From Sulfurimonas sp. HSL3-2 (lineage in GTDB: Bacteria; Campylobacterota; Campylobacteria; Campylobacterales; Sulfurimonadaceae): a stretch of DNA of 64,000 nucleotides. The translations under genes and the position numbers were made by a program. Location of the stretch: NCBI RefSeq assembly GCF_039645965.1, contig NZ_CP147917.1:992001-1056000 (forward strand). The letters are read 5' to 3'. Shown here piece after piece: positions 3-41,986 of this stretch. Below the pieces are notes generated by a model. That model was not told the origin of the DNA and searched no databases. It saw only the letters and a list, made by a program, of their open reading frames with translations. Position 1 is the first letter of the stretch; each line of letters opens with the position of its first letter.

Positions 3-34
3 TTAACATAAAATTAACACTTCTGCATTAAAAT
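3..34 (+). promoter_or_regulatory. Direct-repeat operator and -10 of receptor operon
   Basis: TTAACAT (3-9), AAAA (10-13), TTAACAC (14-20), then 8 bp, then TAAAAT (29-34). Two 7-bp direct repeats on an 11-bp period directly upstream of a -10, with no separate -35, is the geometry of PhoB/OmpR-family activated promoters. The same arrangement recurs at 8513-8544. The binding protein is unknown. Confidence 0.65.
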
Positions 35-49
35 CAAGTCCTAATGTTC

Positions 50-105
50 CCTGCCTTCATTTAGTTTGGTGACTACAAGGCAGGAAACGGCGACAAGCAC
101 CGGGG
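50..105 (+). promoter_or_regulatory. Structured 5' leader RNA of receptor operon
   Basis: CCTGCCTT (50-57) pairs perfectly with AAGGCAGG (77-84). Inside it TAGT (62-65) pairs with ACTA (72-75), leaving the loop TTGGTG (66-71). GGTG of the loop (68-71) is complementary to CACC (98-101), allowing a pseudoknot. The element lies between the inferred transcription start (about 41) and the ATG at 183, whose ribosome site AGGAGAAG is at 173-180. I could not match it to a known riboswitch class. Confidence 0.45.
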
Positions 106-182
106 TTATATTATCATTTTTTTGTAAATTAAATCACAATATACACTTTGGTGCCGTTTTTAAACATAATCTAGGAGAAGAA

Positions 183-2360
183 ATGAAAAAAACAAACGGC
201 ATAGTTCTTTCTGCGATCTGCGCATTCAGTCTTAATCTATCGGCTTCGGACTTAGGGATGATCCAAGTCGAGTCCTCTACCATCGTTGATAAATTCATAT
301 CAAATAAAACTGAAGTATCAAGTACTGCAACGATCAGCGGTGAAACTGTTGATGATGCACACACAGAAAATATACAACAGATCTTACAATCTATTCCGGG
401 TGTGACAACGACATATACGGATGGTGACTCTTTGAAGATCCACTTAAGGGGTGTGGAAAATCAGATGTATATGGGTGAAAAACCGGGTGTAGCTGTCGTA
501 ATCGACGGTGTTCCTGTATTTGAAAGAACCGGAAGTGTCAATATTGACCTTGATAACATCGAAAGCATCAAAGTGATTAAAGGTGGGGCTTCATATCTGT
601 TCGGTGATGATGCACTCTCGGGTGCTGTAATCATCACGACAAAAAAAGGTGCACATTACAATAATAACTTCGGAACTTTTGAAATGGGAAGTTACGGTTA
701 TAAAAAGGTGTTGGCAAGAACAGGATATGCCGATGAAAACTTAAACTTCCATGTGCAGGCAAGTGAAAGAAAGTCTGACGGGTATTATGAAGACTCAGGA
801 TATGATGCCAAATATTTGAATGGTAAACTTCAATATTACATAGATGATACATCTGACCTGACATTTGGTCTTGAAGTCTCAGACAGAGCAAAAGATTCTC
901 ATGGTACCGTCGGTGGTGAAACGGAGGCAAAAAACAATCCAGAATCGATCTATGATGGTCATCAGGAAAGTCGGGATTATGTAAGAGATTACAAAGTTAA
1001 ACTGTTAAAACTATTTTTGACATATTCAAAAGACTTTGAGAATAACTCTAATCTGCTTGTAAACGGTTATATATATACGGATAAGACAAAGTTTATATCT
1101 AGCCCGCAGACAAGAGATGCAACGGGAGCAAAGGATAGTACTTTAGATGATAAAGACTATGTTTACAATAATGACTATGCTCAGATACAAAGAGGTATAA
1201 AAAGTGAGTATAGAACATCATCAGAGAACTTCGCAACACTTCTTGGTCTGGATCTAAGAGCTAATGAATACAAAAACAATACATCATATAGAGTAAATCA
1301 GGCTCTTATAACATCTTACTTTCCTTTTAGTGCAATACCGGATTTCTATAAAGCGGGTGAAACAAAGAGTAATGACAAGACAGATGAAAACGTATATGCG
1401 ATTTACGGCGAGTATAAGCAGGGTCTGACTCAAAATCTAAGTATGACTGCCAATATCAGATATGATCTTATTAAATTAAAATATGAAGATTATAAAGATC
1501 AAAGATTTGATAACAGCTTTGAAGTTTACTCTTATAGACTCGGTAGTAACTATCAATTAGATGAAACATCGACAATATTTGCAAATTATTCGACTGGGTT
1601 TAGAGCACCGACGGTATCTCAACTTTATGCAGGTGATTTAAGTGCATGGGGGTCGACGCAGAATAATCCTGACCTTAAGCCTGAAGAATCAAGAAATTAT
1701 GAACTAGGGTTTAGAACTAAAAAACATCAGATCAACTATGAGCTTTCAGTCTACGAACTTGATAGAAAAGATTTTATTATGAAAAGTTCAGGAAACTACG
1801 GAACAACAGATACGACTGATATGTGGGCAAATATTGGAGGCGCAAGACATAGAGGTCTAGAATTGGCAGCAAATGGTCCAGTGGCAAAGGAACTCTCTTT
1901 TACTCTGGCATATACCTACTTAGACGCAGTATATACAGATTATAAAAACTTTGGAATTGATTTAGGCGGACCAAGTGTGACAGTCTTTGACGTAACGGGT
2001 AACAGAATTCCTAGAACTTCTCAACATGAAGTTAATTTTATTACTTATTATTATCCGCTTAAAGGTCTGAAGCTCACCGGAGAAGTCAATGCTAAGTCTG
2101 ATTACTACGCAGATGATCTGAACAAATTAAAGATCAAAGGTCAAAGGTCTGTAAATCTGGGAGTCGAATATAAAAAGAAAACTTCTGATGGCGAGGTTGC
2201 TGTTTTTGCAAGAGTAGATAATGTCCTGGACAATCAATACTACAACGTAGCAAGAGCGAGCAGTGATAGAAACAGTGACGGTGTATTTGATTATGAAGAT
2301 CTTTCGATCACTGTAAATCCGGGTAGAGTATTTACTGCCGGTTTTTCATTGAAGTTCTAA
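183..2360 (+). CDS. TonB-dependent outer-membrane receptor
   Basis: This is a beta-barrel receptor that would import a chelate or cofactor using energy from ExbB-ExbD-TonB. The start at 183 is chosen because AGGAGAAG lies just upstream and the following residues form a signal peptide (MKKTNGIVLSAICAFSLNLSASD). Longer in-frame starts would run through the leader RNA. A plug domain spans about residues 55-160 (QILQSIPGV, HLRGVEN, IDGVPVF, IKVIKGGASYLFG, GAVIITTKKG). The barrel contains the TBDR signatures GFRAPTVSQLY and NPDLKPEESRNYELG, and the chain ends in an aromatic residue (SLKF). At about 725 aa it has typical family length. It is first in an operon with membrane electron carriers and a HgdB-type reductase, which makes an ordinary siderophore role less likely. 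The substrate cannot be read from sequence. Confidence 0.92.
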   Translation: MKKTNGIVLSAICAFSLNLSASDLGMIQVESSTIVDKFISNKTEVSSTATISGETVDDAHTENIQQILQSIPGVTTTYTDGDSLKIHLRGVENQMYMGEKPGVAVVIDGVPVFERTGSVNIDLDNIESIKVIKGGASYLFGDDALSGAVIITTKKGAHYNNNFGTFEMGSYGYKKVLARTGYADENLNFHVQASERKSDGYYEDSGYDAKYLNGKLQYYIDDTSDLTFGLEVSDRAKDSHGTVGGETEAKNNPESIYDGHQESRDYVRDYKVKLLKLFLTYSKDFENNSNLLVNGYIYTDKTKFISSPQTRDATGAKDSTLDDKDYVYNNDYAQIQRGIKSEYRTSSENFATLLGLDLRANEYKNNTSYRVNQALITSYFPFSAIPDFYKAGETKSNDKTDENVYAIYGEYKQGLTQNLSMTANIRYDLIKLKYEDYKDQRFDNSFEVYSYRLGSNYQLDETSTIFANYSTGFRAPTVSQLYAGDLSAWGSTQNNPDLKPEESRNYELGFRTKKHQINYELSVYELDRKDFIMKSSGNYGTTDTTDMWANIGGARHRGLELAANGPVAKELSFTLAYTYLDAVYTDYKNFGIDLGGPSVTVFDVTGNRIPRTSQHEVNFITYYYPLKGLKLTGEVNAKSDYYADDLNKLKIKGQRSVNLGVEYKKKTSDGEVAVFARVDNVLDNQYYNVARASSDRNSDGVFDYEDLSITVNPGRVFTAGFSLKF

Positions 2361-2381
2361 GATAGCGGTATTTGGATCAAA

Positions 2382-3044
2382 GTGGAAACAGTAACTTTCT
2401 TTTCACTCTTTATCATAGGGCTTTCTTACGGAAGTACGGCGTGCATGTTTTCTTGCATGCCGTTTCTTAGCCCGTTATTGGTGAAAAACTCAAACAGCAT
2501 AAGAGAATCTGTAAGTATTCTAATCCCCTTTAGTCTTGGCAGAATCTTTATGTATACCGTGATCTCTGTTATGGCCTTAAGCGGTGCCGGTCTGGTTAAA
2601 ACAGTATTAAATGACAATGCGGTATTTCAGTCTTTTTTAGGTCTTTTTACTTTATCTATGGGACTCTTTATGTTTTACAGGTTTTTTAAAAAGGAGAAAG
2701 TAAGCTGTTCTGCAAATAGATCTATATCAAGTAACCAGATCGCAAACGGATTTGGGTTGTTTGGTATAGGTGTACTGGTCTCTATAAACCCGTGTGCTCC
2801 TATCTTAACGCTTATCACACTGAGTGCAAACAGTACTTCTATGCCTAGTGCCATAGGCATGGGGCTCTCTTTTGGACTCGGCGCGGTGTTAGTCCCGTTC
2901 TTGTTTTATGGGTTTTTCCTCTCAACTGTTATAAGAGGATTACTCGTAGAGTTTAAAACGTATGCAAAAGCGATAGAGATGATGGCTTCATTGTTGTTAG
3001 TAATAGTCGGGATCTTGATAATCAGCGGTCAGATCAGACTTTAA
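2382..3044 (+). CDS. CcdA/DsbD-like membrane thiol-electron carrier
   Basis: A 220-aa protein with about six membrane segments in two related halves. Each half carries Cys beside Pro: C21 and C25 in ACMFSCMPFLSP, and C138 in SINPCAPIL. This matches the CcdA/DsbD transmembrane family, which passes reducing equivalents from the cytoplasm to periplasmic thiols. It starts with GTG 22 bp after the receptor gene and ends 12 bp before the next, so it is within the operon. A related reading is a UreH/TauE-type transporter of the same superfamily. The paired Cys-Pro motifs favour redox transfer, possibly keeping a periplasmic partner or imported ligand reduced. Confidence 0.65.
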   Translation: METVTFFSLFIIGLSYGSTACMFSCMPFLSPLLVKNSNSIRESVSILIPFSLGRIFMYTVISVMALSGAGLVKTVLNDNAVFQSFLGLFTLSMGLFMFYRFFKKEKVSCSANRSISSNQIANGFGLFGIGVLVSINPCAPILTLITLSANSTSMPSAIGMGLSFGLGAVLVPFLFYGFFLSTVIRGLLVEFKTYAKAIEMMASLLLVIVGILIISGQIRL

Positions 3045-3056
3045 AAAAGGGTATAA

Positions 3057-5435
3057 ATGGTTGATTTTATAAAAAGAGATAAAAATGATATTTTCGGCAA
3101 GCCTGTTTTAGGTTTTTTCTTTAAAAACCAAAAGTTTCTTTTAGCTCTTAGGATCGTCGTCACGGCGACGTTCTTTTATGCACTTTATTTTGGATTTGCA
3201 TATCCTGGTAAAGAAAATATCTTTACGGGAGCTCTCTTTTGGGGAGTTTTCTGGGCACTTTTTATGGTCGCGACACTTCCGACTTTCGGACGCATCTTCT
3301 GCGGTGTCTGTCCACACGGATTCTTAGGTAAATATATCACGAGATTCGGACTTAAAAAAACGATGCCGGAGTGGATGCAAAACAGATATATCGGGATATT
3401 TCTGCTTGTTATCGGATGGTGGGGCGTATATTACACATTTTCAGGGTTTTGGAACTCACCGTTAGTGACTGCTGCGATGTTTACGGTCATGACCCTGCTG
3501 GCGTTTGTACTTTACTACATCTACAAAGATATGAGCTATTGTAAGTCTATATGTCCCATAGGAACTTTGACCCGTGCTTACGACAAACTCTCATTTACAA
3601 AGTTGGAGACCTATACAGACTCTTGTAAAGATTGTAGGACATTTGAGTGTGCAACGGCTTGTTCGTACAACTTAAAGCCCTTTACATTCGCAAAGAAAAA
3701 TCAAAACGATGACTGTACTCTTTGTATGGACTGTAGTGCTGCATGCGAGGCTGTCAAGTTCAAGTTTACAAAGCCATCAGAGCAGCTTTTTTCTAAGTTT
3801 AAGACATTAAACGCAGAGGTATGGACCTATATACTTATCCTTGGTTCTATTCCTGTGTCGATGACCTTTGCTCACGGGCTTAACAGAAGCAGTATCGCCG
3901 ATTCGATGATATGGAACAAGACAGCTGTATACCTGGGACTTAGTGAATATGCAGGCGGCTTTGCATTTTTGTATGCACTTGTATTGACGGTCTTTTTCTC
4001 TGTACTCGGAGTTTTTCTGGCATCTAAAGTCCTGAAAAAAGATTATGCAGGCACTTTTTCCACCCTTGGTTACGGATATGCCCCATTGTTCATACTCGGC
4101 TCGCTCGGTCATACATTGGAGAGTTTCTTTACACATGAGTATCAAACGATAGTACAAGGGTTTGCTCAAGCATTCGGGTTTGCAATAGAGGTCGCACCGC
4201 TTGCTCATAGAGGAGACGCATGGCTTCATTATTTCGGACTGCTGAAGTGGATCGGGGTCATCTGGGCTTTTATCTTGATCTATAAACGACTTAAACTTAT
4301 CGAAGCTACAAAGGTAAGAAAGATATTTGGATATATCTTCGGCTCACTATTGGTGTTTTTCTTTATCGGCATCAACATCTACACCGGATATGTGTTTAAA
4401 ACATACGGCGCGAAGCAGGGCGGACACGGAGCTCACAGTTCTAAAGGGATGCATAGACCGTCATCCGAGGTATCAAAAGGTTTTACGAAATATGCAGGAG
4501 GAAGGGGTCTTAAAAAGGTCGTTTTAAAAGAGGATGAACCTATCTATTTTTCATTTACCAATCCGAACGATAGATCTAAGAGCGCATTTACTATGGGTAT
4601 GTTTTCACACGGCGGTAAAAAAACTGTTCCTACAAAAAAGCTATGGCTGGTCTACGGTGATGAGTTAAACGATGCAAAATCGGTTCCGCAGATGGATGTT
4701 CAAAGTTTCTACTACGACACCAAGAAAAATCTTAAAGAGACAAAGATCCAAGATGTAAAAGGTACGGCTTCTTTCAGCTTTGAGATACCAAATAACGGCT
4801 ACTACAACATCTTCGCAAAAAATGAGACACTAAAGAGCGGTACACTTTTTTACAGAGTCGCAAAGATGGAGTATCTGCACGCCAGCCACGGCAGTGAAGA
4901 GAGCTATACACAGAGCATAAAAGAGAGAGTTCAGGCAGATAAAAGTGACATAGATCTAGTTTTGCTGAAAAATGAGGATGAGAACAGTTTCTTTTACAGA
5001 CACTCTATGGGTGACGAGCTTCGATTTTTGGCACTTCTTCACAACAAACCTTTAACAAACGCAGATATCACAGTTCACATGAGCAGCGGATGGAACAAGC
5101 ATATTAAGACAGATGCAGAGGGGATAGCAAAATTTCATATCATAAGAGACTATTTTCCCGTTTGGAAAGAGTTTGATAAAAGACATAAAGAGGAGTTGTT
5201 AGTCACCTTGACATATACAACGGATGAGGTAGGAAAGTTTGATGGCAAAGAGTATAAAAACATAAAGTACATCTTGACCTATCCGGCATCGTTTTACCCA
5301 AACAACAGTGACTATGCATCATATGCTTATGCGCTTTTATTGGCTGTCTTGACTCTTTTAGTATCGGGGATCATCATATATAGATTTAGAAAGAACAGGA
5401 CAAGACCTTTTAGCGAGGTTCGCCATGTTGAGTAA
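3057..5435 (+). CDS. NapH/NosR-like polyferredoxin with large periplasmic domain
   Basis: A 792-aa inner-membrane protein. N-terminal helices bear the Cys-Pro motifs CGVCP (82-86) and CKSICP (162-167) typical of NapH/NosR/CcoG proteins. Two cytoplasmic cluster motifs follow: C190-x2-C193-x4-C198-x3-C202, and a ferredoxin-type C220-x2-C223-x2-C226-x3-C230. More helices lead to a His-rich patch near residues 455-467 (GGHGAHSSKGMH), then a roughly 300-residue periplasmic region ending in a helix near the C terminus. The periplasmic part resembles DUF4198-like beta domains associated with metal transport (LLHNKPLTNADITVHMSSG), which is a weaker call. It probably carries electrons across the membrane to or from a periplasmic ligand. 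The next gene overlaps its end by 11 bp. Confidence 0.7.
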   Translation: MVDFIKRDKNDIFGKPVLGFFFKNQKFLLALRIVVTATFFYALYFGFAYPGKENIFTGALFWGVFWALFMVATLPTFGRIFCGVCPHGFLGKYITRFGLKKTMPEWMQNRYIGIFLLVIGWWGVYYTFSGFWNSPLVTAAMFTVMTLLAFVLYYIYKDMSYCKSICPIGTLTRAYDKLSFTKLETYTDSCKDCRTFECATACSYNLKPFTFAKKNQNDDCTLCMDCSAACEAVKFKFTKPSEQLFSKFKTLNAEVWTYILILGSIPVSMTFAHGLNRSSIADSMIWNKTAVYLGLSEYAGGFAFLYALVLTVFFSVLGVFLASKVLKKDYAGTFSTLGYGYAPLFILGSLGHTLESFFTHEYQTIVQGFAQAFGFAIEVAPLAHRGDAWLHYFGLLKWIGVIWAFILIYKRLKLIEATKVRKIFGYIFGSLLVFFFIGINIYTGYVFKTYGAKQGGHGAHSSKGMHRPSSEVSKGFTKYAGGRGLKKVVLKEDEPIYFSFTNPNDRSKSAFTMGMFSHGGKKTVPTKKLWLVYGDELNDAKSVPQMDVQSFYYDTKKNLKETKIQDVKGTASFSFEIPNNGYYNIFAKNETLKSGTLFYRVAKMEYLHASHGSEESYTQSIKERVQADKSDIDLVLLKNEDENSFFYRHSMGDELRFLALLHNKPLTNADITVHMSSGWNKHIKTDAEGIAKFHIIRDYFPVWKEFDKRHKEELLVTLTYTTDEVGKFDGKEYKNIKYILTYPASFYPNNSDYASYAYALLLAVLTLLVSGIIIYRFRKNRTRPFSEVRHVE

Positions 5436-6426
5436 ACTCAAACGTCTTATAAACAATATGAACCTTATAAGAATAAGGTTTTGGATACAGCTTATCAGTT
5501 TTGTCCTTTTTGTTTACGGCGGGTATTTTGCCATATATCTAGGGTCTAAACTTCCCATCTTCGCATGTCCGTACAACGGCAAAAGCGCGGGAGCATGTTT
5601 TCTTATACCCCTGCAGCATCAGCTCTCCATGCCCGTTCAGATACTTCTCGGAGGTGCAGGGATCGCCGTCATATTCGGGATACTTACATTCTTGTTTTGG
5701 TTTATCTTTTTAAACAAGGCGTGGTGCGGTTATGTCTGTCCTTTTGGAACGTTTCAGGACTGGCTTACACTTTTGCGAAAACAGATCGGTATAAGATACT
5801 CTACATATACACAGCATCAGTTTGAGAAGCTCTCTAAAATAAAATATATTTTATTGGCAATAGTGATCTTGGTACCGCTTTTAATAGGTGTAGGAGCTCT
5901 TGGCGGAGAATGGTCTGCAGCATTTTGCCAGATATGTCCAGCGCGCATCATAAGCCCTACATTTGGCGGAGACTTCTCACAGTGGAGCATCGACTTTTCT
6001 ACAAAGACCTCTATGGTACTAACTGCTATCGGGATGATATTTGCGGGACTCTTCTTTATCGGAAGTTTTGTAAAAAAACGTTTTTTCTGTTTCTTCTGTC
6101 CTATGAGCGCACTGCATTATATCTTCTCAAAGTTCTCATTTGTACAGTTGAGAAAAGATGGAAGCAAATGTACAAGATGCGGGGACTGTTATGCCGTCTG
6201 TGACATGCAGATCAAAGATATCGCAGATGATGTCATAAGTACGGAGATACTGCGCGACGACTGTATCTTATGTCTGAAGTGTGTAGCCGCATGTCCGGAA
6301 GACGATGCGCTTCATTTTGATATATTGAAATTAAGAGCTTTCAGTTCCACAAAGCAGGGATTTGAAAAAAGAATGGGGATAGCAAAGCCAAAAGGAGATG
6401 CAGATGACAAGCATACAAGAGCATAA
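5425..6426 (+). CDS. NapH/CcoG-like membrane ferredoxin
   Basis: A 333-aa membrane protein with about five or six helices and the motifs WCGYVCPFG, FCQICPARI and FCFFCPMS. It ends in two [4Fe-4S] ferredoxin motifs, CTRCGDCYAVC and CILCLKCVAACP. NapH-type proteins hand electrons between quinol or periplasm and cytoplasmic clusters. It overlaps the previous polyferredoxin by 11 bp and the reductase gene by 23 bp, which implies translational coupling and a shared complex. It is not part of a nap or nos cluster, because none of those genes is present. The direct electron acceptor is inferred to be the HgdB-type reductase or its activator. Confidence 0.75.
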   Translation: MLSKLKRLINNMNLIRIRFWIQLISFVLFVYGGYFAIYLGSKLPIFACPYNGKSAGACFLIPLQHQLSMPVQILLGGAGIAVIFGILTFLFWFIFLNKAWCGYVCPFGTFQDWLTLLRKQIGIRYSTYTQHQFEKLSKIKYILLAIVILVPLLIGVGALGGEWSAAFCQICPARIISPTFGGDFSQWSIDFSTKTSMVLTAIGMIFAGLFFIGSFVKKRFFCFFCPMSALHYIFSKFSFVQLRKDGSKCTRCGDCYAVCDMQIKDIADDVISTEILRDDCILCLKCVAACPEDDALHFDILKLRAFSSTKQGFEKRMGIAKPKGDADDKHTRA

Positions 6427-7693
6427 GCAAGAACATAAGATAGAAACACCGAACGAAAAACAAAACAGACATAAGGCTATGGAAGCTCTCAAGGTCTTAA
6501 ACACTCTGAAAGAGGGATTTAAAACTCCGCCAAAAGCGATGGAGTATTTTTATGATCTTTTTGAAAATGTCTACTGTAACCATACGGCTTTACATCATGA
6601 TAAAGTGAAAGTAGGAACGATGTGTATTCAGATCCCCTCTGAGATCATCTATGCACTTGACGGAGTTCCCATAAGACTCTGTAACGGCTTTTACACCGAT
6701 GATGAGATAGGAAGTGACTTTTTACCGCAAAAGGCATGTCCTTTGGTAAAAGCAAGTGTGGGGCATCTGGCTTCCAAAAATCTCACAGACAAGCCTGACA
6801 TGATCTATTCGCCCACGACGTGCGATCAAAAGACAAAGGCAGGAAGTATCATAGAGGGGTTTGGGTACGACGTCGTCGATGTGGATTTTCCAAGAACCAA
6901 AGAGAGTGAGATAAGCAGGGAGTTCTTTCGAAGAAGCATCAGAGAATTCAGTGTCGATCTTTCTCAAAAAATGGGGAAAAAACTGACAAAGAAAAATCTG
7001 AGGTCTTCGATATCAAAGATCGGATACGCCCAGTCGCTGTATCATCAGATATCAGAGTTTAGAAAAAATAAAATCGTACCAATACTGGGCAATGATATGT
7101 TCTTAGTGACAAACGCTTTTTTCTTCGACAAGATAGATAATTGGATAGAAGCAGCAGAGGTGTTGGTTAAAGAACTCGAGCAGAGAGTAAAAGATGAGGT
7201 CCATGCAGCAGGCAAAGTAAGCCCGAGGATCGTTTACACAGGCTCGCCTCCCATCTTTCCAAACTATAAGATCCCGCTTATCATCGAAGATTCGGATGCC
7301 ATCATAGTAGCCGATGAAACATGTAGTTCAAACAGGATGTTTAACGACAGAGTAGCCGTTGATGAGTGGTTTGTAAACGATATGCTCGATTCTTTGGCAG
7401 ATAAATACTTAAAAGCGTGTACATGTCCCGTGTTTAGTAAAAATGACGACCGTATCAGACGTATCATAGAGCTTGTTCGCTCACATAACGCCGATGGTGT
7501 CATCTATCAGGCATTTGCAGGATGTACCGTTTATGAGCTGGAGCAAAGAAGCGTACTTGAAGCGATGGAAAGAGAGGGTATCTCTATTTTGTATATCGAA
7601 AGTGATTACAGCCCGTCTCAGCATGGACAGCTTAGTACGAGAGTCGAAGCGTTTGTAGAGTCTCTTAAAATAAAGAACAGGAACAAAAGATGA
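6404..7693 (+). CDS. HgdB-family (double-cubane-cluster-like) reductase
   Basis: A 429-aa member of the 2-hydroxyacyl-CoA dehydratase D-component (HgdB/BcrC) superfamily. Conserved features are CNGFYTDDEIG (C93), KACPLVKAS (C112), TTCDQK (C140), CTCPVF (C339, C341), FAGCTVYE (C374) and the C-terminal signature IESDYSPSQHGQLSTRVEAF. A single subunit with many Cys, paired with one activator and with no alpha/beta dehydratase partner and no CoA-pathway neighbours, fits the double-cubane cluster protein (DCCP) branch better than true dehydratases. DCCPs do ATP-dependent, very low potential reductions of small molecules. The start at 6404 is preferred over ATG 6398 because AAAGGAG (6391-6397) is better spaced. 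The substrate is unknown. Confidence 0.78.
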   Translation: MTSIQEHKQEHKIETPNEKQNRHKAMEALKVLNTLKEGFKTPPKAMEYFYDLFENVYCNHTALHHDKVKVGTMCIQIPSEIIYALDGVPIRLCNGFYTDDEIGSDFLPQKACPLVKASVGHLASKNLTDKPDMIYSPTTCDQKTKAGSIIEGFGYDVVDVDFPRTKESEISREFFRRSIREFSVDLSQKMGKKLTKKNLRSSISKIGYAQSLYHQISEFRKNKIVPILGNDMFLVTNAFFFDKIDNWIEAAEVLVKELEQRVKDEVHAAGKVSPRIVYTGSPPIFPNYKIPLIIEDSDAIIVADETCSSNRMFNDRVAVDEWFVNDMLDSLADKYLKACTCPVFSKNDDRIRRIIELVRSHNADGVIYQAFAGCTVYELEQRSVLEAMEREGISILYIESDYSPSQHGQLSTRVEAFVESLKIKNRNKR

Positions 7694-8496
7694 AATATTT
7701 TGCAGGTATCGATATAGGCTCGACTGCCATTAAGATAACGATCATTGATGAAAACAAGGAGATGGTAGGACACCGTATAAGCGGAAGCGGAAGCATGTTT
7801 TACAACTATGCCCACCAGACACTAAACGATCTTATCAATGATCTGAAGATCACTAAGGATGATATCGCTTATACGGTCGCAACAGGATATGGACGAAAGC
7901 TGTTTAAAGAAGCCGATGAAAACATCAGCGAGATCACGGCAAATGCCATCGGAGCCGTAGCAGCGGCTAAAGAGTTCGGAGAGATCAAGACGATCATAAA
8001 CATTGGCGGACAAGACAGCAAAGCTATCTCTTTAGACGATCAGGGGAATGTTGTCAATTTTGCAATGAATGACAGATGTGCGGCAGGAACAGGAAAATTC
8101 TTGGATGCATGTGCTATGAACCTTGAAATAGGCGTAGAGGAGTTGGCCCAGAGACATTTCAATGCTAAAGGCACACCACTTTCTATCAACAGTACATGTG
8201 CCGTATTTGCAGAGTCTGAGATCATCGGTCTTTTGGGCAACAACCACAATGTCGAAGATATCGTCAGCGGCGTACACTACTCGATCGCTAAAAGGATCGT
8301 CAAACTCGTAAAGCGCGTGGGTGTAAAAGAGGGGATCTATTTTGACGGCGGGCCTGCTCTAAACGGCGGGCTTGTAAATGCCATAGAAAACGAGATAGGG
8401 CAGAAGATATTTATACCTGCATATCCGCAAGTTACCACATCTTTAGGCGCAGCGATCTTAGGTGTCGATTCTTATAATTATCAAAAGTCAAGCTAA
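7690..8496 (+). CDS. ATP-dependent activator of HgdB-type reductase (HgdC/BadF family)
   Basis: A 268-aa ASKHA-fold ATPase. The nucleotide loop is GIDIGSTAIKITI (6-18). The Cys residues that hold the dimer-bridging [4Fe-4S] cluster are C130 in NDRCAAGTGKF and C170 in NSTCAVFAESE. NIGGQDSKAI and FDGGPALNGGLV are further family motifs. Such proteins couple ATP hydrolysis to one-electron injection into an HgdB-type partner. The ATG overlaps the reductase stop codon by 4 bp, the usual pairing. It is the last gene of the operon; a new promoter follows at 8513. Confidence 0.88.
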   Translation: MKYFAGIDIGSTAIKITIIDENKEMVGHRISGSGSMFYNYAHQTLNDLINDLKITKDDIAYTVATGYGRKLFKEADENISEITANAIGAVAAAKEFGEIKTIINIGGQDSKAISLDDQGNVVNFAMNDRCAAGTGKFLDACAMNLEIGVEELAQRHFNAKGTPLSINSTCAVFAESEIIGLLGNNHNVEDIVSGVHYSIAKRIVKLVKRVGVKEGIYFDGGPALNGGLVNAIENEIGQKIFIPAYPQVTTSLGAAILGVDSYNYQKSS

Positions 8497-8512
8497 TAAT
8501 AATGAGAGTTTC

Positions 8513-8544
8513 TTAACACAAAATTAACACTCATTTTATACAAT
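8513..8544 (+). promoter_or_regulatory. Direct-repeat operator and -10 of exbB operon
   Basis: TTAACAC (8513-8519), AAAA (8520-8523), TTAACAC (8524-8530), an 8-bp spacer, then TACAAT (8539-8544). The repeat unit, the AAAA spacer and the distance to the -10 all match the site at 3-34. This indicates one regulator for both operons. Confidence 0.7.
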
Positions 8545-8570
8545 GTAATCAAAAAAACAGGTATAGCATT

Positions 8571-9014
8571 ATGAATATAGAATTACTGCAAGACACTCTT
8601 GATTACGGAGTTATGGGAGTACTCGGTGTTATGAGTTTCATGACACTGTGGTTTTGGATAGAAAGAATCATGTTTTACCGTGTGGTGAGTCTAGACACCT
8701 ATAAAACAAAAGAAGCTCTTGAGATAGACTTGACGAACAACATAAGCATCATCTCCTCTTTTGGTTCAAACGCACCCTATATAGGACTTCTTGGAACTGT
8801 ATTTGGAATTATCATCACTTTTTATGTCATGGGGCAAAGCGGCGACTTAGATGCAAAAAGCATCATGACATCACTTGCTCTTGCACTAAAGGCTACTGCT
8901 ATGGGCCTAGCAGTGGCGATTCCGGCGATCTTTTTTCACACGCATATCGTAAGAAAGATGGAAGTACTTATCGCAAGATGGGAGATCATCCAAAAGGAAA
9001 ACCTTGAAGGTTAA
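8571..9014 (+). CDS. exbB: ExbB/TolQ-family proton channel
   Basis: A 147-aa inner-membrane protein with three predicted helices (about 12-30, 65-87 and 103-127). The conserved channel regions are NAPYIGLLGTVFGIIITF and LALALKATAMGLAVAIPAIFFH. With ExbD it forms the proton-driven motor that energises TonB. It lies right after the reductase operon with its own matching promoter and overlaps exbD. The context assigns it to the receptor at 183. Helicobacter-type ExbB proteins are similarly short. Confidence 0.9.
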   Translation: MNIELLQDTLDYGVMGVLGVMSFMTLWFWIERIMFYRVVSLDTYKTKEALEIDLTNNISIISSFGSNAPYIGLLGTVFGIIITFYVMGQSGDLDAKSIMTSLALALKATAMGLAVAIPAIFFHTHIVRKMEVLIARWEIIQKENLEG

Positions 9015-9387
9015 GAAGTTCGAGTCGATCAACGTCGTTCCTTTTATTGACATTATGCTCGTACTGCTTGTCATAGTGCTTACAACTGCGACATTCGTTG
9101 CAAAAGGGATCATTCCGGTTGAACTGCCCAACTCCAAGAGTGCTGCAAAACAGGAAAACCAAAAAAATATAACTATTACCATAAAAGAAAACGGTGATAT
9201 CTTTTTTGACGATACGAAGATTCTCTTAAAAGACATAGATATGTATATATCAAAATATGAAGTAAAGACACCTATAAACATCAACTGCGATAAAGAAGCA
9301 AAGTTTGATATGTTTGTGGCACTGCTGGACACTCTAAAACAGAAAAACTTTAACAACATCGGCATTATCACAAAAAAGCGGGATTAA
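9004..9387 (+). CDS. exbD: ExbD biopolymer transport protein
   Basis: A 127-aa protein with a short cytoplasmic N terminus (FESINVVPFIDIML), one helix containing the membrane Asp of the ExbD/TolR family (PFIDIMLVLLVIVL), and a periplasmic domain. The start is TTG at 9004, inside the end of exbB, preceded by AAGGAAAA. It is the second subunit of the TonB motor. Confidence 0.9.
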   Translation: MKVKKFESINVVPFIDIMLVLLVIVLTTATFVAKGIIPVELPNSKSAAKQENQKNITITIKENGDIFFDDTKILLKDIDMYISKYEVKTPININCDKEAKFDMFVALLDTLKQKNFNNIGIITKKRD

Positions 9388-9412
9388 AAGAGATTTTGAA
9401 AGGAAGGGACAG

Positions 9413-10126
9413 ATGAATAGATATATAAACTCTTTTTTAATTACACTGCTTCTTTATCTGTCCGCTTTCGGGGTGATAATCTATGAGTCTGCTACAGATA
9501 ACTACTGCGATAAAAAGACGTTTAACGAAAAGAGCAGCAGAATCTGTTTTTCTATGGTGACACCGCCTTCACCGATGAAGAAAGATGAACCTAAAAAAGA
9601 GAAAAAAGTTGAAAAGAAAATAGTAAAGAAAGTAGAGAAAAAGGCAGTAAAAAAAGAGATTGTGCAGGCAAAAAAAGAGCCGTTGCCAAAAGAGATTCAA
9701 AAAGAGATCCCTAAAGAAGAGGAACCTCAAGAGGTCGCTAAAAAGCAGGAAGAACAAACAGATACTCCTTCAGAAACCAGACCAAATGTCCAAAAAGTTG
9801 TGAATACAAATGTCCAAAAAACAGTGGATGAAGATATGGTCAAAGCAAAACAGGACAGATTTATAGCTCATCTTGTCGAGAGGATCAACTCAAATAAATC
9901 ATATCCTATGGCAGCCAGACGAAGAGGTATCGAAGGAGATGTAGAGGTAAAGTTTCATGTATTTTCTGACGGAACGGTACGATATATAAAAATGGTATCA
10001 GGAAAAAAAATATTTAGACACTCTACGCTTGAAGCTATCTCAAAAAGTTTTCCTATCGATATCGATAAAACACTCTTTAACTTCCCAAAAGAGTTCAGGA
10101 TTACTATCGCATATGTCCTAAAATAG
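9413..10126 (+). CDS. tonB: TonB protein
   Basis: A 237-aa protein with an N-terminal anchor (LITLLLYLSAFGVIIY), a Lys/Glu/Pro-rich linker (about residues 55-110, with repeated KKEKKVEKK-type blocks) and a C-terminal TonB domain (about 150-237, SYPMAARRRGIEGDVEVKFHVFSDG). It transmits ExbB-ExbD energy to an outer-membrane receptor. The gene begins 25 bp after exbD. The window also has a second receptor (39331-41403) with no local TonB, so this one might serve both. Confidence 0.93.
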   Translation: MNRYINSFLITLLLYLSAFGVIIYESATDNYCDKKTFNEKSSRICFSMVTPPSPMKKDEPKKEKKVEKKIVKKVEKKAVKKEIVQAKKEPLPKEIQKEIPKEEEPQEVAKKQEEQTDTPSETRPNVQKVVNTNVQKTVDEDMVKAKQDRFIAHLVERINSNKSYPMAARRRGIEGDVEVKFHVFSDGTVRYIKMVSGKKIFRHSTLEAISKSFPIDIDKTLFNFPKEFRITIAYVLK

Positions 10127-36219: not shown

Positions 36220-36780
36220 ATGAAGTTAAAGATAGCAGAACTTAGTGATATAGATAAAGTCCTGGAACTTCATTTCAAGTACCAGATAGACTCCATCAAG
36301 GAGGAGGATAAAAAAGACGGTTTTGTCACGACTCCTTTTACAAAAGAACAGCTTTCTGAGCTCATAGAAAAAGAGCAGGGGCTTTTTATCGCACTCCAAG
36401 AGGGTGAAGTCGTAGCGTATGTTATGGCGGCATCGTGGCAGTTTTGGTCAAGATGGCCGATGTTCGCTTATATGATAGAAGGTCTGGGAGATCTTGAATA
36501 TCTGGGAAAAAGACTGAGTACAGAGAACTCTTACCAGTACGGTCCTATCTGTATCGATAAAAGTGTGAGGGGAAGCGGAGTACTTGAAGCGATATTTGAG
36601 TTTGCAAGAGGCGAGATGGCAAAACGTTACCCGATACTTGTGACATTCATAAACAAGATAAATCCGCGCTCATACGAAGCTCATACAAGAAAGCTGGGTC
36701 TTGATGTCATAAAAGAGTTCTCATATAACGGTAACAACTACTATGAGCTGGTATATGATACTTCCAAGTCATTAAGATAA
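36220..36780 (+). CDS. GNAT-family acetyltransferase
   Basis: 186 aa. The N-terminal pattern IAELSDIDKVLELHFKYQ and the later YGPICIDKSVRGSGVLEAIFEFARGEM (acetyl-CoA loop region) are GNAT-like, ending LGLDVIKEFSYNGNNYYELVYD. The substrate is unknown. It converges with, and overlaps by 9 bp, the GGDEF-EAL gene on the opposite strand. Confidence 0.75.
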   Translation: MKLKIAELSDIDKVLELHFKYQIDSIKEEDKKDGFVTTPFTKEQLSELIEKEQGLFIALQEGEVVAYVMAASWQFWSRWPMFAYMIEGLGDLEYLGKRLSTENSYQYGPICIDKSVRGSGVLEAIFEFARGEMAKRYPILVTFINKINPRSYEAHTRKLGLDVIKEFSYNGNNYYELVYDTSKSLR

Positions 36781-38712
36781 GGAAAACTCTGCTTGCGGTT
36801 CTGCAAGGAAGAATCCTTGTGTACGGTCGATCTTCAACTCTTTAGCTTTTATGTAGACCGCTTCAGTGTGAACATACTCTGCGATAGTAATAATATTTAA
36901 TTTTTTTGCAAAGTTTACGATCGTTTCGACGACTATTTGAGCATTTGGATCGGTATCAAGATGCTTTATCAACGAGCCGTCTATCTTGATGTAGTCAATA
37001 TCAAGTCGAAGAAGATGTTCAAAACTTGAATACCCTGAGCCAAAATCATCTATAGCGATTCTACAGCCGAGAGCCTTCATCTCACTGATAAAAGTTGATA
37101 CCTCTTGATAATTATCTATACCTTCCGTTTCGAGGATCTCAAAGATTATCTTTTTGCTGACATTGTATTTTTCTATATTGTGTTTTATATATTCTATCGT
37201 AGCTTCATCCAAGATATCTTCTACCGATAGATTTACTGAAAAATCACAATCTATATCTTCAAAGTATTTACAACTTTTTTGAACCATTATTTTTGTCAAT
37301 TTGCTATACAGCTTACTTTTTTTTGCAATAGTTAAAAACTCATAAGGGCTGATAACAGTATTACCATTATCGATGAGACGTATAAGGGATTCGACACTTA
37401 CGATCTTGTTGGATACATTGTCATAGATAGGTTGAAAGTAGGGCGCGATCCTATCTTCTTCTATGGCTTTTGCCAACTTTTTCCCCCATTCGATATTGTT
37501 TTTATAGAGTTTTTCCACATTATGTTTTCCATCATAAAGTAAAAAGGATTTTTTCTGTTGTTTAGCTGATTTTAAAGCGATATCAGCTTTTTCCAAAGCT
37601 CCTTCTATCTGAAATGCTCCTCCGATAGTGATTCGGATAGATAGTTCATTGTTTTCATGATAAAAGACCATTTTTTCCACATTGTCGATTAGTTTTTGAG
37701 CGATCTGTATAAATTCGTTTAACAAAGGTTTTTTCGTAAACAGTAAAGCGAACTCGTCACCGGAAAGATGCATCAGGATCACATCATCCTCATTTGCAAA
37801 CATATTCTCGAGTGTACGTGCGAAAGAGATTAAAACAGTATCTCCTGCAATATGACCGAAAAAGTCATTGATCTCTTTAAAGTCATCAATATTGATGACC
37901 AGAAGCGCACCATCAGTATAGTTGCTTATCTCATTGAGTAAACTTAGTCTATTTGGTAGTCCTGTCAGACTGTTTGTATAAAGCTGTTTTCGAAGTTCCA
38001 CTGTTTTTTCATTTACTTTATCTTCAAGAAAATGGTTTGCATCTTCTTGCTCTTTTGAATATTCTAAGATCTTCTCTTGCATATGGCTAAGAGCGTTTGA
38101 GATAAGACCGATCTCATTATGTTCTTCTATTAAAGGAAGATGAACTTTTTTATTCGGTGAGAAATTTTTTAATGCCTTTGCTATCTGTCTCAGAGGAGAG
38201 AGAAGTCTCTTCACGTAGAGACTAAACAGTAAAAAGAACAAAACGAGTGCTATCAAGATTTCGATGAGTAAAGTGGTATATTTATCTATCAATACTTTAT
38301 AGTTTTTAGTAGAGTAGACAAGAAGTAACGTCCCGATCTGCTTTTGTGAATTTGGTTGTAAAATGGCTTTTTCAACTTTAAAAGAGTCATTGACATTACT
38401 GCTGTAATCTTTAGATTTCATCTCTTTGATTATCTTGTCGTCTTTTATGACTTTAATGGCTAAAATATTGGGATTTTCGATGAGTTTTAACAGTGTATCG
38501 TCTATTTTACCGTTCATATCAAGGTAGATGTTGAGTGCGACCAGCGGTTCAATGGTCTTTAGGACAAGATCGGCTTTTTCCATCTCAATACTGTAAAAAG
38601 CCTGTTTATTGATCCTTTCAAAAACATTAAAGATCACTACGACAGAAAGCAGCGATACCAATGAAATCGAAAGTACGATTTTTGTAGAAAGTGACTTAAA
38701 TTCTTGTTTCAT
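36772..38712 (-). CDS. HAMP-GGDEF-EAL membrane c-di-GMP enzyme
   Basis: 646 aa. A helix (about 11-27), a periplasmic region (about 30-140), a second helix (about 145-167), HAMP (about 168-225), GGDEF (about 245-395, signature SGDEF in HLSGDEFALLF), then EAL (about 410-640). The EAL signature reads ESLIRL, with DDFGSGYSSF and IAEYVH; the metal-binding acidic residues appear kept, so phosphodiesterase activity is possible. It is last in an operon behind a YfiR-like periplasmic protein, the arrangement in which YfiR-type proteins control a membrane cyclase. Confidence 0.88.
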   Translation of the reverse strand: MKQEFKSLSTKIVLSISLVSLLSVVVIFNVFERINKQAFYSIEMEKADLVLKTIEPLVALNIYLDMNGKIDDTLLKLIENPNILAIKVIKDDKIIKEMKSKDYSSNVNDSFKVEKAILQPNSQKQIGTLLLVYSTKNYKVLIDKYTTLLIEILIALVLFFLLFSLYVKRLLSPLRQIAKALKNFSPNKKVHLPLIEEHNEIGLISNALSHMQEKILEYSKEQEDANHFLEDKVNEKTVELRKQLYTNSLTGLPNRLSLLNEISNYTDGALLVINIDDFKEINDFFGHIAGDTVLISFARTLENMFANEDDVILMHLSGDEFALLFTKKPLLNEFIQIAQKLIDNVEKMVFYHENNELSIRITIGGAFQIEGALEKADIALKSAKQQKKSFLLYDGKHNVEKLYKNNIEWGKKLAKAIEEDRIAPYFQPIYDNVSNKIVSVESLIRLIDNGNTVISPYEFLTIAKKSKLYSKLTKIMVQKSCKYFEDIDCDFSVNLSVEDILDEATIEYIKHNIEKYNVSKKIIFEILETEGIDNYQEVSTFISEMKALGCRIAIDDFGSGYSSFEHLLRLDIDYIKIDGSLIKHLDTDPNAQIVVETIVNFAKKLNIITIAEYVHTEAVYIKAKELKIDRTQGFFLAEPQAEFSLS

Positions 38713-38721
38713 TGAAAAACT

Positions 38722-39330
38722 TTAAACTCCCGGATCAAATGATTTACTCTGTAACACTGGATCGTAGTCCAACAGAGATAAGTCTTTAAAACTGCTGCTG
38801 TCCATAAACTTGACTATCTGCAGTAAGGAATCGACAAAATCTATTTTTTGTGTACCAAGGGTGTCTTTATTAAGATATAGTATTGTTGATTGTTCAATAA
38901 GTAATGAAAACATGATCCCTTCTTTTAAGTCCATTATATCGTATGAAAAAGAGATAACACCTTTCTCTTTGGCAATATCTGCTATTTTTTTGACACATCC
39001 GTTCACATTAAGTATATATATAGCGGATGCTTTCGTATCTTCTGAAAATTTTGAGCACTCTACAAAGTTAAGAGTATAGCTATATGTATCCAGATAGCCT
39101 TTATATTTTAAGTCAATATATTTTCCTATCTCCAATGCGACATTATAGTCACTGTTATTATAGACGATCGTATAAACTATCTTACCGTCTATGAGTTTAT
39201 TATCTAATTTTTTATCCAAGAGCAGGATCTTAGGAAAAATAGATGCTTGCGCTTTAAGCAATACATCATCATAGTTATGCGCAAAGGCTAGACTAACAAG
39301 AGCTAAGTAGATGAAGAGTATTCTTTTCAT
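38722..39330 (-). CDS. YfiR-like (DUF4154) periplasmic protein
   Basis: 202 aa with a signal peptide (MKRILFIYLALVSLAFAHN). The mature region, LLKAQASIFPKILLLDKKLDNKLIDGKIVYTIVYNNSDYNVALEIGKYI through SAIYILNVNGCVKKIADIAKEKGVISFSYD, follows the DUF4154/YfiR pattern. It begins 1 bp from the receptor stop and ends 10 bp before the GGDEF-EAL start. Inferred role: a periplasmic relay that couples receptor state to the c-di-GMP enzyme. The family call is moderate. Confidence 0.55.
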   Translation of the reverse strand: MKRILFIYLALVSLAFAHNYDDVLLKAQASIFPKILLLDKKLDNKLIDGKIVYTIVYNNSDYNVALEIGKYIDLKYKGYLDTYSYTLNFVECSKFSEDTKASAIYILNVNGCVKKIADIAKEKGVISFSYDIMDLKEGIMFSLLIEQSTILYLNKDTLGTQKIDFVDSLLQIVKFMDSSSFKDLSLLDYDPVLQSKSFDPGV

Positions 39331-41403
39331 CTAGAACTCTTTCTTTAATGTTATCAGGAAGTTTCTGCGCTCTTGTTCATAATCCTCTATATATGTATGT
39401 GGAGGAGAGGCATAGGCGACTCTGGCATCAAAGATATTTTTAACACTCAAAAGCAGACTATAGTCATATTTTCGGTTTTGATATCCAAGTGAAGCATCTA
39501 AAGTGGCATAGGCATTGAGCTTATCGCGTGTATCACCGGGTGCTCTGTCTTTTTCACTGACATATTTTGCAACACTGCTAAGAGATAGGTTCTCATTGAG
39601 ATTATAGATATAGTACCCTTTAGCCAGATGATGTGAGACGTTTGGCAAAGAGTCATTTACTGCTTGATCTTTTATATGAGATGAACCGGTCACGTATGAG
39701 TAGTTTAGATATAACTTATCTACAGATGAGAGATGTCCTTTATATTCAAATTCAAAACCATATATATCCGTATCCCCGACATTTCTATATACAGGATCAG
39801 TAGCTGAATTATATATTTGATTTTTATTAAGAAGATAAAAAAGGTTTGTCTGCAGATAAGAGTCGTTTGAAAACTTTTTAATGTAAGCGAGCTCAAAAGC
39901 ATCTACTTTTTCCGGTTCTAGATCCTTGTTCCCGACTCTTGCAAGATTGTTTTTGGTAAACATCTCCTGCCATGACGGGTTTCTATGTGCACGGCTGTAT
40001 ATAGCTTTAAAGATGTTTTGCTGGTCGAGTCTGTAGACCATAGAGACTCTAGGTTCAAGACCTGCATCTTTATATGAGGTCTGTTCATAGTTGATACCGT
40101 ATATGAAGCTGAGGTCGTCGTTAAACCAAAATTCATCCTGCAGTGAGAGGATAAGGATGTCCCGTTTGGCATCCTTATCAAAAAATGGCAGTGTATCGGT
40201 ATAATCGACCAATGCGACATCACCGGTGGACCTGTTTGAAAGTTTTGAGATCATATCTACGGTCTCTTCTCTTATGATGCGGTATCCTGTGGTAATGATA
40301 TGATCATCCAGTCCATAGTATTTTAAATAGGTAGATTGATACAGAGTCCTCTGCTTGGCGATATGCTCTCCGTATATCCCGTTAGGAAAAATGATGCCGC
40401 TGAGGTTAAGATCATCCGGACCCAGTTTTGAATAGGAGTCAAAGTTATCGTATTTTACACCGGCCTTGATGTCAAACTTATAATCGTTTATCTTTTTATC
40501 ATAGCCTAGTTCGAGGTAGTAACTTGGCAGTTTTAATCTGTCACTTTTTTGCGGCAGTGCCAAGTTTATGCCGTAGGCACTTCCCTGTTTATGTTCTAAT
40601 ATGCGGGCTTTAACGGAAAAATCTTTATATTTCATATTAACACCAAGAGAGTAGTCCTCAAGCCATAGCGGTGCATCGCCGGACTTTGAGAGTCCGATAT
40701 TTGCCAAACCTAATGCTCCTTGTGAAAGTCCGTCAGGGCCTGCAGGAAGCTTTTTATCATCTTTTTGATAGTAAAAATCTACAAATAGCTTTAGATCATC
40801 GGTCTTTAAAGTTTTTAGAAAACCTCCCATCTTGTAGTCGTATGAACCGTATTTAAATACGATGCCGTCTTTTGACTCAAATCCTTTAAAGTCTTCTGCA
40901 TAAGTTATGACATTGATGGAACCGGCATAGGCATTGACCCCGTTTGTCTTGCTTCCAGGACCTCTTACGACCTCGATCCTTTTGATCATCTCTATAGGCA
41001 TACCGAGGTATTCCGAGTAAGCATCAAGAAAAAGATTGTTGACAAGCACATCATCTATAAAAAGTTTTGTCTGCCCGTATGCAAGTGAGTTTGAACCGCG
41101 AAAAATAGGTGTCTGGATATTACTGTTATCTGTAGCCATGTCGATGCCGGGAACGAGTTCTATCGCTTCTTTTAAATTTGAGACACCGAGTTTTTCAAGC
41201 TCTTTTCCTTGAAAGACAGAGATGATGTAGGGCTGGTATTTCTCATTCTCTTTTGTGACTGTCGCGACTTCATTGAAGTGTTCCATATCGTTAGATATAG
41301 AAGTGATGATGTCGTCCATCTTCGCATCCAGATTTGAGAGGCTCATGAGTAAAAACAGACTGCTTATGAGTTTGGCTTTACTAAAACAGTTCTTACATAA
41401 CAT
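39331..41403 (-). CDS. TonB-dependent outer-membrane receptor
   Basis: 690 aa. A signal peptide (about 1-27) is followed by a plug domain (YQPYIISVFQGKELEKLGVSNLKEAIELVPGIDM, IFRGSNSLAYGQTKLFIDDVLV, IKRIEVVRGPGSKTNGVNAYAGSINVIT). A TBDR barrel ends in EF, with AHRNPSWQEMF and NKDLEPEKVDAFELAY. It belongs to the Cir/vitamin-B12/siderophore receptor type. It overlaps the acyltransferase gene by 11 bp, which ties reception to local production of an acylated molecule (inference). No tonB or exbBD gene is in this operon. Confidence 0.9.
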   Translation of the reverse strand: MLCKNCFSKAKLISSLFLLMSLSNLDAKMDDIITSISNDMEHFNEVATVTKENEKYQPYIISVFQGKELEKLGVSNLKEAIELVPGIDMATDNSNIQTPIFRGSNSLAYGQTKLFIDDVLVNNLFLDAYSEYLGMPIEMIKRIEVVRGPGSKTNGVNAYAGSINVITYAEDFKGFESKDGIVFKYGSYDYKMGGFLKTLKTDDLKLFVDFYYQKDDKKLPAGPDGLSQGALGLANIGLSKSGDAPLWLEDYSLGVNMKYKDFSVKARILEHKQGSAYGINLALPQKSDRLKLPSYYLELGYDKKINDYKFDIKAGVKYDNFDSYSKLGPDDLNLSGIIFPNGIYGEHIAKQRTLYQSTYLKYYGLDDHIITTGYRIIREETVDMISKLSNRSTGDVALVDYTDTLPFFDKDAKRDILILSLQDEFWFNDDLSFIYGINYEQTSYKDAGLEPRVSMVYRLDQQNIFKAIYSRAHRNPSWQEMFTKNNLARVGNKDLEPEKVDAFELAYIKKFSNDSYLQTNLFYLLNKNQIYNSATDPVYRNVGDTDIYGFEFEYKGHLSSVDKLYLNYSYVTGSSHIKDQAVNDSLPNVSHHLAKGYYIYNLNENLSLSSVAKYVSEKDRAPGDTRDKLNAYATLDASLGYQNRKYDYSLLLSVKNIFDARVAYASPPHTYIEDYEQERRNFLITLKKEF

Positions 41404-41986
41404 GTCGTTTCTCCCAATATCTGATCAGTTCCGGATTGTCTTCGCCTAGCTGCTGTGTGTATAAAACGCATGGATAACGAAAGCCGAACAGATCATGAAG
41501 TTGTTGTTCCGCTAAAGTGTGGTAATGTACTTTATAGATCTTCAGGAGTCTTAGAAATGCTTTTTCAAGTGAACCGTAGCTGTACTCTATACCCAGCTCT
41601 TTCATTTTGGAATACATAAACTTTTTTGCTCCCTCTATGATGATCTTTGTAGTTTTAAGATCTCTGTACTTGGCATCTACAAATATTCTCGACATTTCGG
41701 CAAGTTTGTCTCTTGAAAAGATCTCTTTGTTAAAATGCATACTGTTCTCTGTGGGGTATCCGACGGGGGAGTTATATATCAGTCTAAGTGTGGCGCAGAC
41801 TTGGTCTTTATCATCTATAGCTGCAAAATGAACAGCATAAGGATCGTATTTATCGTGTTCTTCATTATCATACAGGTTTGAGATTTTTAAATATTCAGGA
41901 TAGATTTCAGAAAGAATCTTATACCTGAAAGCATAAACTTGTTTTAACAGATCACCCTCTTTGACTTCTAAAAAAGTAAAACTCAA
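41393..41986 (-). CDS. LuxI/FeeM-fold acyltransferase
   Basis: 197 aa. FRYKILSEIYPEYL near the N terminus, HFAAIDDKDQVCATLRLI in the core and KLAEMSRIFVDAKYR are the conserved stretches of the autoinducer-synthase / N-acyl-amino-acid-synthase GNAT group. LuxI proteins carry the equivalent R/E residues. It would move an acyl chain from acyl-ACP to an amino donor. It is first gene of the four-gene operon. The product is unknown: an acyl-amino acid or a lipid-like signal is plausible, and true homoserine-lactone synthesis is not shown. Confidence 0.65.
   Translation of the reverse strand: MSFTFLEVKEGDLLKQVYAFRYKILSEIYPEYLKISNLYDNEEHDKYDPYAVHFAAIDDKDQVCATLRLIYNSPVGYPTENSMHFNKEIFSRDKLAEMSRIFVDAKYRDLKTTKIIIEGAKKFMYSKMKELGIEYSYGSLEKAFLRLLKIYKVHYHTLAEQQLHDLFGFRYPCVLYTQQLGEDNPELIRYWEKRHVM

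Follow-up and report, generated by a model that had tools for sequence, protein, structure and literature searches.

A set of nine consecutive genes in Sulfurimonas sp. HSL3-2 probably encodes a new means of freeing a scarce metal, copper being the likeliest, from a carrier molecule. The genes lie at 183-10126 of a 64,000-nt stretch (NZ_CP147917.1, 992,001-1,056,000 of the forward strand; hereafter the window) in a 2.24-Mb, single-contig genome of the Sulfurimonas family, and the same gene set is scattered among sulfur-oxidising Campylobacterota. It combines TonB-dependent uptake with membrane iron-sulfur proteins, a double-cubane-type (DCCP) reductase and an ATP-dependent activase. We tentatively favour its interpretation as an accessory metal acquisition system in which ATP-driven outward injection of electrons reduces an imported chelate in the periplasm, copper being a likelier metal than iron.

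Open reading frames and family searches agreed on all nine genes described by an initial annotation, in the order given there, on the plus strand and mostly overlapping. The first encodes a siderophore/PqqU-like TonB-dependent receptor (183-2360; PF00593/PF07715; PDB YncD/PqqU) and is followed by genes for a CcdA/DsbD_2-like membrane thiol carrier (2382-3044; PF13386, PF02683), a 792-aa NapH-like Fe-S membrane protein fused to a periplasmic DUF4198-fold domain (3057-5435) and a second NapH-like protein recognised from the conservation and topology of its 16 cysteines (5425-6426). The reductase HgdB (HGD-D; 6398-7693) and its putative partner HgdC, a BcrAD/BadFG-type ATP-dependent activase or archerase (7690-8496; TIGR00241; PDB 4eht/1hux), come next, and the set ends with ExbB (8571-9014; TIGR02805, above its cut-off), ExbD (9004-9387; family searches) and TonB (9413-10126; PF03544), beyond which lies glyS, from 10193. 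A Pfam search found the plug and barrel of the receptor together with ExbB, ExbD and TonB. There are probably two transcription units, since exbB is preceded by its own copy of the operator described below.

The initial annotation saw in HgdB a double-cubane-type reductase and proposed its placement in a DCCP/HgdB tree. Both the tree and the cysteines bear this out. Among solved structures it comes closest to 6eno and 7yyl, double-cubane proteins of Carboxydothermus (E about 1e-59), and the seven cysteines that align with those of the Carboxydothermus protein ChDCCP (76, 95, 114, 142, 309, 343 and 376) are kept in 50/50 HgdB sequences. HgdB proteins of at least 55% identity form a single clade with 100/100 support inside the DCCP family, on a long branch of its own and apart from HadC, BzdN and MbdN, so that there is no grouping with the acyl-CoA dehydratases. 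Two additional cysteines, 60 and 341, occur throughout the clade (50/50), whereas neither ChDCCP nor any of eight ordinary DCCPs has them. In view of that long branch and of a score of 321.5 bits against the NF040772 double-cubane model, under its cut-off of 350, the protein is best called a member of a divergent DCCP subfamily and not an equivalog. HgdC is an ordinary archerase, both by its model (TIGR00241, 218.8 bits against a cut-off of 125.4) and by its two bridging cysteines, Cys130 and Cys170, which are invariant (46/46). The Carboxydothermus DCCP and E. coli YjiM/YjiL resemble the pair in all seven aligned cysteines and in having a paired activase, but they are only about 30% identical and lack the two extra cysteines, and the neighbours of YjiM include no TonB receptor or NapH gene. 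The acyl-CoA dehydratases and benzoyl-CoA reductases (HadBC, BzdN, MbdN) share the fold family and the ATPase partner but occupy separate deep branches and miss several of the double-cubane cysteines. We know of no natural role for the double-cubane reductases, YjiM included.

The genes are conserved together in other genomes, a check that the initial annotation had asked for. A single scan of genome contigs gave 31 loci, all from Campylobacterota except L007, which is filed under Petrimonas and which we take for a binning error. HgdB is carried by two of the eight genomes of its own genus, and any HgdB match was found in 25 of 121 Sulfurimonas-family genomes. In 397 genomes of the phylum, HgdB matches were split between two identity ranges. 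At 29 places (a fragment aside) identity was at least 55%, and the neighbourhood was present at all loci of this group checked; the others, of at most 36%, are ordinary Campylobacterota DCCPs, and at seven of their loci (L122-L128) HgdB/HgdC have neither a receptor nor a NapH or CcdA gene next to them. When 43 loci with enough flanking sequence were searched by tblastn, the 16-Cys NapH and DUF4198 were found in 43, the receptor, the CcdA-like protein and HgdC in 41 each, and the accessory genes less often (ExbB 20, TonB 19, an RND permease 13, NosL 11). The order NapH-HgdB-HgdC is retained, and the keeping of this neighbourhood across 50 loci excludes chance. HgdC is absent at L037 and L042, whose genomes (G033 and G074) each contain the system twice; the other copies (L038 and L043) do have HgdC. 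The HgdB tree intermixes Sulfurimonas, Sulfurovum and Arcobacter, which suggests transfer within the phylum; in Sulfurovum mangrovi a copy whose annotation lists these genes in unchanged order, with an RND permease and another receptor in addition, lies on a 395-kb replicon recorded as a plasmid.

The receptors are 22-80% identical to that of the window while HgdB keeps 54-92%, so the core module serves more than one receptor. The pairing of such varied receptors with one conserved HgdB also speaks against an explanation in which HgdB acts on the chelator itself, destroying a copper- or iron-binding ligand by a nitrogenase-like reduction (of isonitrile or N-O groups, for example). Jeoung and Dobbek (2018, cited in PMC10418091) reportedly found that a double-cubane protein reduces small unsaturated substrates, and the link to copper would suit the idea; the ligand, however, would need to enter the cytoplasm, and we judge this explanation improbable.

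Several variants of the gene set were encountered. At L041 (15278-19358) and L047 a sister module without HgdB, consisting of a receptor 53% identical to that of the window, a free DUF4198 protein, a 16-Cys-type NapH and CcdA, adjoins the full system. At L024, L005, L018, L025, L110 and others hgdC is followed by a multidrug-type RND permease with no visible membrane-fusion partner. The receptor gene is in two reading frames at L110 (8827-11006; Sulfurovum mangrovi) and at L112 in one other genome. In the phylum search, about ten species of genus g20 (e.g. G317, G167, G265) had ordinary DCCP genes with one in-frame stop in the matched stretch, the result of decay or of a recoding event. A 1206-aa gene beside two loci, CobN-like by length, was identified from its sequence as probably encoding DNA polymerase III alpha and set aside.

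The membrane proteins provide the features expected of an electron carrier between the two faces of the inner membrane. Sixteen cysteines are invariant in the NapH-like protein (49/49): eight make up a pair of cytosolic ferredoxin motifs, four belong to the motifs CX3CP and CX2CP at the cytosolic face, and four others (Cys48, 58, 168 and 171) are in loops predicted by the positive-inside rule to be periplasmic. Equivalents of the last four are missing from a CcoG-like control and from another NapH-like control, and are present in the NapH of the HgdB-less sister modules (Sulfuricurvum-like L041 and L047). The pattern is what a transmembrane wire would need, with clusters that the cysteines would bind and a path that electrons may follow. 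Neither membrane Fe-S protein reaches the 213-bit cut-off of TIGR02163 (76 and 30 bits), and both are NapH-like and not NapH. The initial annotation called the pair polyferredoxins; their NapH-like nature holds, whereas the 792-aa protein is more than that, having a further membrane part, a DUF4198-fold domain in the periplasm and a final transmembrane helix. In the CcdA-like protein, Cys21, 25, 109 and 138 are invariant (44/44); carriers of the CcdA type move electrons outward.

In the mechanism that we propose, the receptor would, to judge from its family, bring a metal chelate across the outer membrane into the periplasm, while in the cytoplasm the ATPase HgdC would load HgdB with electrons of very low potential, as is established for these families. 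HgdB would hand the electrons to NapH, acting as a four-helix Fe-S wire with cysteines at both membrane faces, and on the periplasmic side the chelated metal would be reduced and then released with the help of the CcdA-like thiol carrier. The released metal would be held by the DUF4198 domain (in some species also by the NosL domain) of the NapH-DUF4198 protein, and in operons with an RND permease the pump may send the empty chelator back outside. This scheme joins what the loci display, namely gene content, conservation, folds and operator, by a proposed electron path, substrate and place of reduction. Outward flow is favoured because CcdA runs outward, NapH reaches the periplasm and prediction puts the metal-binding domains there, and because there is no conserved route into the cytoplasm. 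It is possible, in a bolder form of the proposal, that the ATP-driven double-cubane reductase sends sub-NADH electrons through the transmembrane wire to strip an imported chelate that would be irreducible otherwise, with the leader RNA described below perhaps tuning the system.

The initial annotation had instead supposed that an imported cofactor or metal complex enters the cytoplasm to be reduced there by HgdB, with the NapH proteins feeding the reductase. HgdB and HgdC are cytosolic and the C-terminal ferredoxin motifs of NapH face the cytosol, which suits that explanation, but we regard it as unlikely. Besides the outward direction of CcdA, the periplasmic cysteines of NapH and the predicted periplasmic position of the DUF4198 and NosL domains, the locus has no conserved inner-membrane importer, and four carrier genomes gave no strong match to a FecCD-type siderophore/B12 permease and only weak ones, as to ABC-3-type permeases. 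Quinol, moreover, is too positive to feed an archerase unless it is energised. Of the two imports that the annotation allowed for, a metal chelate, copper first, is to be preferred to a cofactor. In the window's genome FeoB is present and a FecCD-type permease occurs only beside BtuB; cobalamin uptake was rejected for the present system, as that separate BtuB has its own permease, and no known riboswitch was found.

The DUF4198 part of the 792-aa protein points to metal binding. It is divergent, with a Pfam score of 24.1 bits in the window against a cut-off of 34, and a PDB search by sequence gave no match; a fold search alone succeeded, in which the C-terminal part of the NapH-DUF4198 model matched Zcp with zinc, cobalt or copper (9mhl, E 7.6e-10) and the nickel-bound Ideonella DUF4198 (9gcb, E 1.9e-6). 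The protein has 12 invariant cysteines, and GGHG (the His460 region) and His611 are conserved in the domain. The free N-terminal metal-binding histidine of DUF4198 is not present, the domain being internal in the fusion. At Sulfurovum-like loci DUF4198 is separate, mostly with CC or CXXC right after the signal peptide or membrane anchor. A NosL domain occurs in 10 of 32 NapH-DUF4198 proteins, among them those of L036 and of L006, which is closely related to the window, and it scored above its cut-off in the proteins that were checked one by one; NosL serves nitrous oxide reductase as its copper chaperone. In G070, a genome with no HgdB, a receptor is followed by a NapH-NosL protein that is 53-55% identical over its full length to the 900-aa forms.

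The operon is preceded by an operator and a structured RNA leader, at 3-157, that lie upstream of the start of the initial annotation at 183. It opens with the direct repeat TTAACATAAAATTAACA (3-19, plus strand), of 11-bp period, with a -10-like TAAAAT at 29-34, and a second copy, TTAACACAAAATTAACA (8513-8529, plus strand; -10 TATACA at 8537-8542), stands ahead of exbB; second sites within the operon occur also in G002, G031 and G082. The pattern TTAACA-N5-TTAACA (at least 11/12 matches), followed by a -10-like box, is found upstream of 37 of 49 operons where shuffled sequences give 0.5, and its strict form has 84 matches in 121 family genomes against 6 for the reversed control. The logo was drawn from 30 sites, with near-identical loci counted singly. 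The repeat has the form of a putative OmpR-family activator site. The window's genome (G000) holds six exact sites only (664215, 992003, 1000513, 1387536, 1925547 and 2050305).

The other targets of this operator are a DsbD_2 gene with cbb3 oxidase, a periplasmic CopZ/MerP-like protein, SCO1 with COX1, TonB-copper receptors (in the window's genome with one mismatch), a membrane cytochrome c pair with thioredoxin and CcoG-like genes, MacAB-type genes, a gene upstream of cytochrome c peroxidase, and receptor plus NapH-like pairs; the remaining matches have no evident theme. The copper and oxidase targets occur in carriers and non-carriers of the system alike, and in the Sulfurimonas family the repeat marks a small regulon whose theme, judged from these genes, appears to be copper and heme-copper oxidases. 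In L116 and L117 the operon has a TonB-copper-type receptor as its direct neighbour, and in L116 this receptor is itself flanked by a response-regulator gene. A Pho box was rejected as the identity of the repeat, no listed operator site being near pstC in four genomes. The cytochrome c pair (L080, 4424-8742) comprises membrane proteins of 464 and 440 aa, in both of which a cytochrome c domain at the C-terminus is the only Pfam match; the thioredoxin-like and CcoG-like genes come after it, and the pair may be an unrecognised oxidase or reductase.

It is this shared operator, together with the NosL domains, that makes copper the more likely metal, with ferric iron the main alternative. In the latter case electrons would be injected outward to reduce siderophore-bound ferric iron, the siderophore possibly being a catecholate of sub-NADH potential, and Fe(II) would then enter through FeoB. 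Such a substrate would account for the need for very-low-potential electrons, and the reduction potentials of ferric catecholates can indeed lie below that of NADH. FeoB is present without a ferric-siderophore permease, the receptor is closest to siderophore models, and DUF4198 is found in Fur-regulated ferric-reductase clusters (PMC8238504, PMC11870441). The operator's other targets and the NosL domains nevertheless argue for copper, and Fur-box-like sites occur in 5 of 49 upstream regions where 1.7 are expected, which is not convincingly over chance; there is one good match upstream in the window's genome (991973-991987), in which a genome-wide search was no richer than the control. Fur regulation was accordingly rejected, and we consider the iron explanation somewhat unlikely. 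Nickel or cobalt acquisition is highly improbable: a DUF4198 protein of Ideonella binds nickel with an affinity of 18 nM and is encoded near NikR and TonB genes (PMC12537917), but the regulon and NosL favour copper, and neither NikR nor a nickel transporter was seen to be encoded next to the operon.

Several observations weigh against periplasmic copper reduction as proposed here. The weak point is that Cu(II) reduction needs no such low potentials and fits an ATP-driven reductase poorly, so that iron stays a serious rival; ferric catecholates would fit the reductase better. The receptor scores as siderophore-like and not copper-like (TIGR01783, 190 bits, below the cut-off of 223.5), the window's own NapH-DUF4198 protein has no NosL domain, and the described DUF4198 relatives bind nickel (PMC12537917) or belong to ferric-reductase clusters (PMC8238504). 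The hand-over from HgdB to NapH is proposed only from gene adjacency and clade-specific cysteines, the structure model of NapH is poor (pLDDT 53) and unusable, and the biochemistry of the whole model is as we infer it.

Between the operator and the receptor start lies a leader RNA. Its first element (44-112, plus strand) has a stem, with arms at about 46-57 and 77-88, that carries the near-invariant loop AGTTTGGYGACT at 63-74, and a second hairpin (97-157, plus strand), formed by GCACCGGGG (97-105) and CTTTGGTGC (146-154) and followed by a T-run, is a possible expression platform. The first hairpin recurs at L003, L004, L010 (4024-4140), L020, L037 (4996-5066) and L042 (two copies, 2780-2852 and 5297-5410), the window's leader spanning 44-157; a ninth copy lies in the window's own genome, behind the same operator and ahead of the cytochrome c pair (L080, 4293-4385). 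The stem arms vary yet keep their complementarity (CCTGCCTT/AAGGCAGG in the window, GCTTGTCTATG/CATAGACAAGC in L080, CCCTTGC/GCAAGGG in L010), as read from each sequence separately; an alignment on sequence only misaligns the stems. Folding z-scores run from -4.8 to -0.4 across copies (-3.5 in the window). There was no Rfam match, a model (R1) built from the nine copies found no further ones in 1.2 Mb of DNA, and none was found in plasmids. The leader is an undescribed RNA and may sense the metal or the chelate, although some loci would also allow this stretch to be translated as a short leader peptide (MATST...).

Parts of the proposed system have parallels. In the pyoverdine system (FpvA, FpvGHJK, PvdRT-OpmQ) a receptor, periplasmic reductive release and a pump that exports the empty chelator are combined as proposed here, but there is no ATP-driven reductase, and the pump of the present loci is, when present, an RND permease with no visible adaptor. 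The PepSY-DUF2271-DUF4198 ferric-reductase clusters (PMC8238504; Caulobacter CCNA_03155-03159, PMC11870441) also have a transmembrane carrier and a periplasmic DUF4198 protein, often with a TonB receptor, and are thought to reduce metal in the periplasm; their carriers, however, are flavin/PepSY proteins under Fur regulation, with no Fe-S wire and no HgdB/HgdC, and a Pfam search found no PepSY, DUF2271 or FMN-binding protein among the window's nine genes. The cupric reductase CcoG (reviewed in PMC8267372) is likewise a NapH-like membrane ferredoxin, reducing metal for cbb3 oxidase, but it has no receptor and no HgdB/HgdC, and the CcoG-like control has none of the periplasmic cysteines seen here. 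Thus TonB receptor, DUF4198 and membrane reductase form a known theme (PMC8238504, PMC11870441), while a 16-Cys Fe-S wire in place of flavin/PepSY carriers, and an ATP-driven double-cubane reductase in addition, are not described in the literature that we found. A search largely confined to sources outside subscription journals paired no double-cubane protein, HgdB-type dehydratase or activase with TonB-dependent uptake, in agreement with the initial annotation, which knew of no pathway combining these parts.

Elsewhere in the window, on the minus strand at 36772-41986, are genes for a TonB receptor, an autoinducer-synthase-like acetyltransferase and a GGDEF/EAL protein.

Our findings tie one DCCP clade to a membrane wire and periplasmic metal-binding domains in every sufficiently flanked locus, and nearly always to an importer, so that the physiological role of a DCCP can be tested directly in a cultured organism. 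If the proposal is true, the double-cubane family would gain such a role in metal uptake driven by ATP and sub-NADH electrons, and the system would show how ATP can be used for the reduction of very stable metal complexes outside the cytoplasm and how sulfur-oxidisers in sulfidic water may get copper.

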